Assembly (NCBI GenBank): GCA_012839815.1
Contig: DUMQ01000052.1
Location: 1-34,084, forward strand
Direction: 5' to 3'
DNA from: Bacillota bacterium
Lineage (GTDB): Bacteria > Bacillota > SHA-98 > Ch115 > JABLXJ01
DNA: 34,084 nucleotides
How positions within the stretch are numbered: the first letter of the stretch is position 1; each line of letters begins with the position of its first letter. The notes under the pieces were generated by a model that made no database searches, had not been told where the DNA came from, and saw nothing but the letters and a program-made list of their open reading frames with translations. Positions 1,143-34,084 of this stretch are shown here, piece by piece. The position numbers were made by a program, and so were the translations under genes.

Positions 1143-1418
1143 CTAAGTTAGTGCGCAAAAATCTCTGCCCTTTTTGGCACTCGCATAGAGTGTCTCGCAT
1201 CTCTCGGCCAGGCGGACGCGGCTAAGTGTAAGTTCGAAGATTATCGCCGTTTTTCCAGGGGATGCCGGTGCTTGCGTTCCGGGGACGGCGCGCTTGCGGC
1301 GCGCCTCCGTTGAAATTTGGCGCGAGGGCCTTGCCAAATTTCAAAAGGCCCCGTCACGCAAGCACCGGCATCCCCCTGGGACGTGCTGGTAAACTGGCAC
1401 AAATCGGCACTAACTTAG
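1143..1418. mobile_element. Non-coding palindromic repeat with 12-bp terminal inverted repeats (MITE-like), copy 1
   Basis: The element is bounded by a perfect 12-bp inverted repeat, CTAAGTTAGTGC at 1143-1154 and its complement at 1407-1418. Inside, 1255-1277 and 1356-1379 form a second inverted repeat (23 of 24 positions, one extra C). There are smaller stems at about 1283-1299 and 1312-1344. A second copy of the family lies at 33835-34084. It encodes no convincing protein; a 64-codon open frame inside it has no ribosome binding site and no recognisable family. The truA stop codon (1415-1417) lies inside the right terminal repeat. The class is unknown to me, and no clear target duplication is visible. 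Confidence 0.75.
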
Positions 1419-2152
1419 TATTTAACGCATACGAGGTATAAACCCTTTGCTGGCGCGGTTGGCCCCGCAACCCGCCGATCCCTCGCATCGAGAACCTTCT
1501 TTACCCATTCAGGAGCCTCCCTGCCGGAGCCAACCCTCAGTATTGTCCCAACTATGATCCGCACCATATTATAAAGGAAACCGTCAGCCTCGATCGTCAT
1601 GGAGATGACCCCGCCGTCCCCGGACCACTCGAGTACCTTAACCTCCCGTTCGAATGTCTTCGCCCCGCCACCCGATGCCGCAAAAGACCTGAAATCATGC
1701 CTGCCGATCAAACATTCACTCGCGATGCGCATCCTCTCCAGGTCGAGCTCCTCATGAACATGATAAGCATAGTTCCTCAAAAATACGGACGCATGAGAGC
1801 CCGTCTGGATCTTATAGCAATATACCTTGCTTTTCGCATCATACCTGGCATGAAACCCGATATCAACCTCCTCGGCATCGATAATACGTATGTCCGGCGG
1901 GAGCACACTATTCAAAGCGGGAGGGAAACTCTCCGGTGGCATCCGGCTGGACGTCCTGAAGTTCACGACCTGGCCAAGGGCGTGCACCCCTGCATCGGTC
2001 CGCCCGGCGCCAGTTACCCTGACATGTTCTTTGACTATACGCAGGAGGGCCTTTTCAAGCTCACCCTGGATCGTCCGGACGCCAGCCTGCAGCTGGAAAC
2101 CAGAATATGCAGTGCCGTCATACTCCATAACCAGCTTGATATTGCGTTCCAT
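1415..2152 (-). CDS. truA: tRNA pseudouridine(38-40) synthase TruA
   Basis: TruA isomerises uridines 38-40 in the anticodon arm of many tRNAs. The 245-residue protein has the TruA catalytic motif GAGRTDAGVHALGQVVNF with the nucleophilic Asp, an N-terminal VMEYDGTAYSGFQLQ block, the FHARYDAKSKVYCY segment, and GFLYNMVRIIVGTIL near the C-terminus. It starts at ATG 2152, 20 nt behind ecfT, with a weak G-rich binding site, so it is probably last in the alpha-ecf transcript. Its stop codon is embedded in the terminal repeat of the element at 1143-1418. This suggests the element inserted at, or was trimmed to, the very end of the gene. Confidence 0.96.
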   Translation of the reverse strand: MERNIKLVMEYDGTAYSGFQLQAGVRTIQGELEKALLRIVKEHVRVTGAGRTDAGVHALGQVVNFRTSSRMPPESFPPALNSVLPPDIRIIDAEEVDIGFHARYDAKSKVYCYKIQTGSHASVFLRNYAYHVHEELDLERMRIASECLIGRHDFRSFAASGGGAKTFEREVKVLEWSGDGGVISMTIEADGFLYNMVRIIVGTILRVGSGREAPEWVKKVLDARDRRVAGPTAPAKGLYLVCVKY

Positions 2153-33292: not shown

Positions 33293-33321
33293 ATATTACC
33301 ACTCCTGGTCATAGGTGTCAA
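33293..33321 (-). promoter_or_regulatory. SigA-type promoter for rpoB and downstream genes
   Basis: On the minus strand TTGACA (33316-33321) and TAATAT (33293-33298) are spaced by exactly 17 nt. It lies immediately behind the rplL terminator and ahead of a leader of about 265 nt to rpoB. A promoter between rplL and rpoB is expected when a terminator separates them. It is the best promoter in the window. Confidence 0.8.
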
Positions 33322-33354
33322 TAAAAATTCGAGGGGCATTTTGCCCCTCGAATT
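33321..33354 (-). terminator. Intrinsic terminator after rplL
   Basis: A perfect 12-bp stem (33326-33337 with 33343-33354) with a 5-nt loop is followed on the minus strand by TTTAT, with the stem itself ending in AATT. It lies about 33 nt past the rplL stop. Its far end touches the -35 box of the rpoB promoter. On the plus strand the stem is followed by GCTTCC, so it would act poorly in that direction. Confidence 0.85.
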
Positions 33355-33386
33355 GCTTCCTGGATGATATATGCCTCTCAGGCTCT

Positions 33387-33764
33387 CTACTTTATCTCGA
33401 CGGTCGCTCCCGCCTCTTCTAGCTTCGCCTTCATGGCCTCGGCCTCTTCCTTCTTTAGCCCTTGCTTAACCGGCTTGGGTGCCCCATCAACCAGGTCCTT
33501 CGCTTCCTTCAGGCCAAGTCCAGTAAGCTCCCTGACGACCTTGAGCACTGGGATCTTCTTATCGCCCGCGGTGACGAGGATAACGTCAAATTCGGTCTTC
33601 TCCTCAACCTCCGGTGCGGCTGCAGGAGCTGCCGCCGGACCTGCCGCGACAGCCACAGGAGCTGCCGCGCTAACACCAAATCTCTCTTCCAAAGCCTTGA
33701 CCAGCTCAGACAGCTCAAGAACCGTCATATTCTCTATCGCCTGGAGAATTTCTTCTTTTGTCAT
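33387..33764 (-). CDS. rplL: 50S ribosomal protein L7/L12
   Basis: L7/L12 forms the flexible stalk that recruits translation factors. The 125-residue product has the N-terminal dimerisation domain ([20 protein letters not shown]), an Ala/Pro-rich hinge around residues 33-52, and the factor-binding C-terminal domain with [40 protein letters not shown], then [23 protein letters not shown] 33764 follows AAAGGAG and GAGGT. Upstream one expects rplJ, but a repeat element beginning at 33835 intervenes; rplJ, if present, lies beyond the window. Confidence 0.97.
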
Positions 33765-33834
33765 CCGGACCTCATACTCCTTTTCTCATATTTTCATAGT
33801 TCTCACGTTCTAAGTTGTTATATTCTCATAGAAT

Positions 33835-34084
33835 CTAGGTCAGTGCGCAAAAATACCCGGACCTTTTGCAGGTAACACCTACCACTGCCGCACATTGGCC
33901 GGGGGTGTCTCGCATCTCTCCGCCAGGCGGCCTTGATCTCCGGTCCAATAGCCCTCAGCCGGAGATTACGGAGCGGCCTGCTCGACTAGGTGTAGGTTCC
34001 TTAATTTGCAGTTTACCAGCACGTACGTCCCGGGGGATGCCGGTGCTTGCGTGACGGGGCCTTTTAAAATTTGGCAAGGCCCTC
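33835..34084. mobile_element. Non-coding palindromic repeat, copy 2 (cut by the window edge)
   Basis: The end at 33835, CTAGGTCAGTGC, matches the terminal repeat of the element at 1143 with two changes. Further shared blocks in the same orientation are 33842-33854 with 1150-1162 (identical), 33905-33930 with 1190-1215 (25 of 26) and 33986-33999 with 1222-1235 (12 of 14). Then 34009-34084 matches the reverse complement of 1324-1396, differing by a 4-bp ACGT insertion, a 1-bp gap and one substitution. The far end is outside the window. No coding sequence is seen. Confidence 0.75.

Follow-up and report, generated by a model that had tools for sequence, protein, structure and literature searches.

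The 34,084-nt stretch of Bacillota DNA analyzed here (the window, contig C34) is one of the 163 contigs of a 2.80-Mb assembly (G000) and ends, upstream of rplL, in a repeat that resembles another repeat of the same window (copy 1, positions 1143–1418, plus strand). The question raised by this locus is why the two copies match each other partly in direct and partly in inverted orientation, and the initial annotation proposed that the core of the copy at 33835–34084 had flipped relative to its ends or else that the family consists of two near-symmetric halves. The repeat is real: it opens with a terminal repeat at 33835 and reaches the contig end at 34084, which is an assembly break and not the terminus of the element. 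We conclude, with a probability of about 0.83, that 33835–34084 is part of a single, compound, 432-bp non-autonomous MITE of the IS630/Tc1 type that carries its core in the canonical orientation.

Both kinds of match to copy 1 are recovered by pairwise comparison and BLAST. The direct ones cover 33835–33868 against 1143–1176 (34 nt, 76%), 34030–34059 against 1255–1284 (30 nt, 90%) and a further block of 26 nt (96%), and the inverted one covers 34029–34084 against 1324–1379 (56 nt, 96% complementary); in BLAST, the latter match spans the last 76 nt (92%, E 3.5e-26). Thus, the last 76 bp do correspond to the reverse complement of copy 1, but with about six differing columns including gaps, not with the "only three differences" originally counted.

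The reconstructed element in the rplJ-rplL gap

C34 and contig C48 share a stretch of 48 bases exactly, the former at its end and the latter at its start. Of about 60 contig ends that bear family sequence, no other overlaps this end of C34 exactly by 20 bp or more. C48 carries rplJ, the gene that had been anticipated beyond the element. From this overlap, we infer that the two contigs join within one element, which in the joined form comprises 432 bp; the gene order is rplJ-element-rplL-rpoB. The visible 250 bp (33835–34084, minus strand) run with the right end first and the remainder is located at C48:49–230. Read along the plus strand, the visible part consists of the outer terminal inverted repeat (33835–33854, CTAGGTCAGTGCGCAAAAAT; consensus CTAAGTTAGTGCGCAAAAAT), an outer end module of type B (33855–33904, ACCCGGACC...GCCGGG), a subterminal inverted repeat block (33905–33930, exact GTGTCTCGCATCTCTCCGCCAGGCGG), the middle module M1 of the outer element, with a hairpin of its own (33931–33985, CCTTGATCTCCGG...), the right arm of an inner, class-wide element (33986–34031, starting CTAGGTGTAGGTTCC), a stem arm of the conserved core (34032–34052, GGGGGATGCCGGTGCTTGCGT) and the start of the core itself, beta side (34053–34084). 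The break falls within the core, with 34037–34084 identical to C48:1–48.

For comparison, we used a sister genome of the same genus (G001) that is less fragmented than G000 and has longer contigs. There, rplJ directly neighbors rplL, the element is lacking and the spacer measures 95 nt, as opposed to 527 nt here; copy 1 is likewise absent at the truA-rplM junction. Of the 232-bp outer element described below, G001 and one other genome of the order yield only traces. The empty orthologous sites and the mere traces of the outer element in relatives imply that, among the genomes searched, the insertions at both window loci and the amplification of the outer element are confined to this species; the 432-bp element was inserted between rplJ and rplL recently. 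The rplJ-rplL target in G001 has diverged (GAATGCTGGGGC), and CTAG is not displayed there.

The rplL gene (L7/L12; 33387–33764, minus strand) retains some 70 nt of leader together with a ribosome-binding site of the GGAG type, and a search for sigma-70-like sites found none in 33300–34084, which includes the visible part of the element. An effect on the L10/L12 balance is plausible, and the co-regulation by L10 mentioned in the initial annotation could be lost. A strongly structured 432-nt insert in the rplJ-rplL gap presents a natural test of whether the L10:L12 balance requires the two genes to be close. On the other side of rplL, a strong, terminator-like hairpin (33326–33354, minus strand; 1 found against 1.1 expected by shuffles) lies between rplL and rpoB, the gap that in other bacteria is the site of the rpoBC attenuator.

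A modular family of more than 100 copies

Genome searches with each of the window copies retrieved dozens of relatives. Patterns drawn from the family match at 90 core, 136 subterminal-block and 171 terminal-repeat sites in the 2.8-Mb genome, far beyond chance given that the reversed control patterns gave 0 matches, and the genome harbors well over 100 copies of this modular hairpin element. The elements come in forms of 232, 382 and 426–432 bp, with a 20-bp terminal inverted repeat at both ends, and complete copies, such as C95:7394–7821 and C6:44687–45112, read left end, left arm, core, right arm, right end. Stop-to-stop open frames of 100–133 codons are present and vary between copies, which differ by single-base indels. 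At L062:1673–1741 (C9:3672–3740), a minimal element of 69 bp contains just two terminal repeats and a single end module.

About half of the family fragments in G000 (78 of 154) stop no more than 30 bp from where a contig or fetched region ends, so that much of the fragmentation of this assembly can be put down to this single family. A fixed k-mer overlap in the assembly graph was considered and discarded: overlaps between contig ends have no set length, varying between 20 and 127 bases.

A MITE within a MITE

The 432-bp form is composite. An outer 232-bp element, with ends CTAAGTTAGTGCGCAAAAAT, carries an inner 200-bp element (CTAAGTG...CACTTAG), and each occurs on its own: 232-bp copies at C161, C92, C122, C80 and C37 consist of the outer element alone, and the inner one stands without the outer across the class. 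Positions 80–279 of the complete element by themselves have matches in 15 of the 101 genomes searched (including this one), all within the class. Among the matches listed, the core is found in the uncultured Bacillota MAGs Yes71-24, UBA6811, MAG-64, UBA4981 and AS02xzSISU_21, mostly between ends CTAAGT...ACTTAG, and the arm sets around it are of several kinds. At least 39 loci in the named genomes match a 27-base pattern taken from the inner hairpin; the exact core pattern has no match in these genomes because the relatives differ in that stretch.

An empty target of the inner element, GGACGCGG-CTAG-TCGAGCAGG, is preserved at C78 (L065), and its comparison with the filled form, GGACGCGG-CTAAGTG...ACTTAG-TCGAGCAGG, shows that the target is CTAG and that insertion leaves a TA on either side. 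C precedes TA at 88 of 110 outer ends, against a background of about 19% of the TA sites in the fetched DNA, and 8 of the 10 two-ended copies read C-TA...TA-G. Duplication of TA, a mark of IS630/Tc1 transposition, is therefore documented by the internal empty site and the end statistics, and not seen directly at rplJ-rplL; in the flanks of the 232-bp copies, there is no consistent longer target duplication. The truA-rplM site of G001 was rejected as a definition of the target duplication given that G001 natively reads CTAAGTTG. Combined, these features suggest a scheme in which an IS630/Tc1-type transposase acts, or acted, on the CTAAGT...ACTTAG ends, insertion would duplicate TA at preferred CTAG targets, and a 200-bp MITE of greater age, whose hairpin core is branched and conserved, sits in a younger 232-bp MITE.

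Yet another palindromic element, of about 115–130 bp (GAGACTGTTGA...TCAACAGTCTC), is lodged inside the outer terminal repeat at three loci, L026:~800–931 (C91), L028:~230–368 (C124) and L004:~1900–2048 (C2). Here TTGCGC is apparently duplicated, a target duplication unlike that of the host element.

The putative mobilizing enzyme and known relatives

We detected no DDE_3 gene in this genome (99.7% completeness), which does not strictly disqualify a MITE, as transposases are often lost. A DDE_3 gene is present in 6 of 17 genomes of the class. The sister genome contains a 1143-bp IS630-type transposon (L174:883–2025, G001:C2) with HTH and DDE_3 domains (DDE_3 E 1.1e-31), the coding region of which is broken by one internal stop. 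This transposon starts CTAAGTTAGTGTCCAATTAA and ends, in reverse complement, CTAAGTTAATGCACAAAAGT, matching the terminal repeat of the outer MITE at 15 of 20 and 17 of 20 bases, respectively; a relative in another genome of the order has the same start point, CTAAGT. To judge by this broken relative, the mobilizing enzyme is probably an IS630-type (DDE_3) transposase. The family offers a clear example among bacteria of one MITE nested in another, for which a sister genome holds an autonomous relative. Candidate autonomous elements inside the fetched loci, spanning 1.2–2.5 kb, proved to be host genes between two separate copies.

The closest precedent is RUP (repeat unit of pneumococcus), a non-coding MITE mobilized by IS630-Spn1 that is likewise present in about a hundred copies, bounded by terminal inverted repeats matching an IS630 element and inserted at TA (PMC2229807). 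RUP, however, is a simple 107-bp unit, in contrast to the nested, modular 200–432-bp element with a branched conserved core described here, and has IS630-Spn1 at its disposal, whereas no intact transposase was found in the present genome. Anatomy also links the element to Correia/NEMIS of Neisseria, a TA-bounded hairpin MITE with size variants created by an internal segment (PMC2229807), except that the internal segment of the present element is a MITE in its own right, bounded by TA/CTAG and with a core that inverts. A preference of IS630 for CTAG is reported in PMC2170065 and its reference Tenzen and Ohtsubo 1991; IS630/ISY100 (Tc1/mariner) share with our findings a DDE_3 transposase with an N-terminal HTH, TA duplication and this preference, but the element in the window lacks a transposase gene. 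The present element is a modular new variant of the IS630-type MITE.

A branched core maintained across the class

The complete element folds far better than its shuffles (z −15.7). Across 29 cores from many genomes, 36 base pairs in three helices are kept, and 11 of these 36 have changed on both sides, compared with a mean of 3.6 in shuffled data, where 0 of 500 shuffles scored as high; slid controls of the pairing collapse. The covariation along with the collapse of the slid controls implies that the structure of the core is maintained. Throughout an uncultured class of Bacillota, this 115-bp, branched, covarying core appears between different arms, and the arm sequence GGTTGCCGGTG is among its most conserved parts class-wide. 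Maintenance of the structure is compatible with RNA and with single-stranded or cruciform DNA alike and does not tell these apart. When the window was searched against Rfam, no family reached the gathering threshold, and only miRNA and lncRNA matches far below the gathering scores were returned.

A more far-reaching possibility is that the 115-bp three-way-junction core is a functional module in its own right, be it a structured RNA or a DNA substrate in single-stranded form, that several unrelated sets of arms have captured throughout the class and that inverts recurrently as part of the life of the element. We put this forward only tentatively and consider it rather unlikely.

Core orientation varies within the family

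Gathering the copies bears out the suspicion that both core orientations occur within the family. The flipping segment, about 75 bp long, lies between 20-bp inverted stem arms. The left (AL) arm in this genome adjoins the alpha side of the core in 31 cases and the beta side in 36; the copies with both arms include 12 canonical and 19 flipped ones, and the long contigs of G001 yield 5 and 16, respectively. In the other members of the class, the canonical orientation prevails, with at least one flipped copy (L161).

Orientation is linked to the type of the outer end (23/7/4/21, Fisher p 9e-6), although all four combinations occur, which indicates that many flipped copies descend from few founders. 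On a tree of the cores, orientation requires 12 changes against a shuffled mean of 15.7; the tree is poorly resolved and does not fix the number of events. The flipped cores may have a single origin. The most economical account is that a small number of inversions between the 20-bp stem arms happened early and were spread by transposition, with further inversions since. Such flips would result from recombination within the hairpin or from template switching there, to be then copied by transposition, with no dedicated invertase. Small hairpin-associated inversions in chloroplast DNA might provide a mechanistic parallel: as cited in PMC12928735, inverted repeats of 11–24 bp flank a loop that flips, so that short inverted repeats surround a segment found in both orientations, although the segment flipping here is about 75 bp long and belongs to a multi-copy bacterial mobile element. 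Long, internally repetitive inverted arms and reported structural dynamism also characterize Foldback/Galileo of Drosophila, according to PMC3573991, but these are eukaryotic relatives of the P element that are kilobases long.

Alternatively, a site-specific recombinase could actively switch the core at the 20-bp inverted arms, in the manner of invertons. The segment is indeed flanked by inverted repeats and found in both orientations, at nearly 1:1 in this genome and in both states in the sister, and the arm sequence is highly conserved across the class. However, conservation and covariation of the stem are equally expected of a hairpin that is needed in transposition or in RNA, the visible part of the element contains no sigma-70-like promoter, and the link between orientation and end type implies that the flips are not at free equilibrium; we therefore view active switching as quite improbable. 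Still less probable is that the flipped copies are chimeras produced by a short-read assembler at internal inverted repeats: the many fragments terminating at contig or fetched-region ends indicate that the assembler struggled with this family, but 19 flipped copies have both arms inside one contig, and in the sister genome most of the flipped copies are complete, with CTAAG-type ends, and reside within contigs of 49–354 kb.

The elements at L161 (UBA6811, DKEX01000071) and L163 (Yes71-24, JASEJE010000013), in other class members, include a flipped core and hybrid arms, one of each type, indicating module exchange between element types. The family presents a conserved hairpin core in both orientations and between different arms, and with more than 100 near-identical copies per genome, both the inversion of hairpin DNA and the exchange of MITE modules become directly countable.

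The two copies of the window

Both window copies lie within ribosomal-protein gene clusters. This location, the extreme hairpin and the covarying core could be taken to point away from a transposable element, towards an extragenic palindrome of the REP/BIME type or an RNA that regulates ribosomal operons in cis. REP/BIME are tagged palindromes of 20–40 bp associated with a RAYT transposase, and given the size of the element and its anatomy of terminal inverted repeats and TA, membership in that group is unlikely. The defined terminal repeats, the TA/CTAG target, the nesting, the empty orthologous sites, the well over 100 copies at unrelated loci and the lack of any Rfam family at threshold in the window render this alternative as a whole highly improbable.

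Under the preferred reading as a compound MITE, the mixed matches that prompted the analysis result from the opposite directions of the two copies and from the terminal and nested inverted repeats. The copy at 33835–34084 corresponds, in reverse, to the right-hand portion of the order left end-left arm-core-right arm-right end; copy 1 corresponds to the left-hand portion, lacks most of the right half and carries its core in the canonical orientation. The alternative of near-symmetric halves was well founded in that terminal, subterminal and core-stem inverted repeats are common to both ends, and it is these repeats that produce the direct matches. We give next to no credence to an inversion of the core of the 33835–34084 copy by recombination, even though flipped cores do occur in the family and a naive comparison with copy 1 yields direct ends and an inverted core: the family alignment refutes this reading, as the right arm is next to the beta side of the core, just as in C95, C6 and C2 and in the arrangement prevailing class-wide, the left arm adjoins alpha in the C48 half, and copy 1 has the identical internal order, being merely shorter and oppositely directed. 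The 33835–34084 copy is in the canonical core state, the orientation that also prevails across the class.

Copy 1 occupies the gap between rplM (L13; 588–1079, minus strand), the downstream gene, and a truA-like pseudouridine synthase gene (1415–2152, minus strand). Its inner element (1222–1404, plus strand) retains the left arm, the core, with stem arms at approximately 1257–1277 and 1356–1376, and part of the right arm. It is the end of copy 1 that supplies the TAA stop of truA (1415–1417), although this stop is also native to the sister genome, within a similar sequence. Beside copy 1, at 1099–1142, the window contains a short palindromic array, GGTATCCGGGTACCGGGATACCGGTATAAACCGGTATCC, that is absent from the sister genome.
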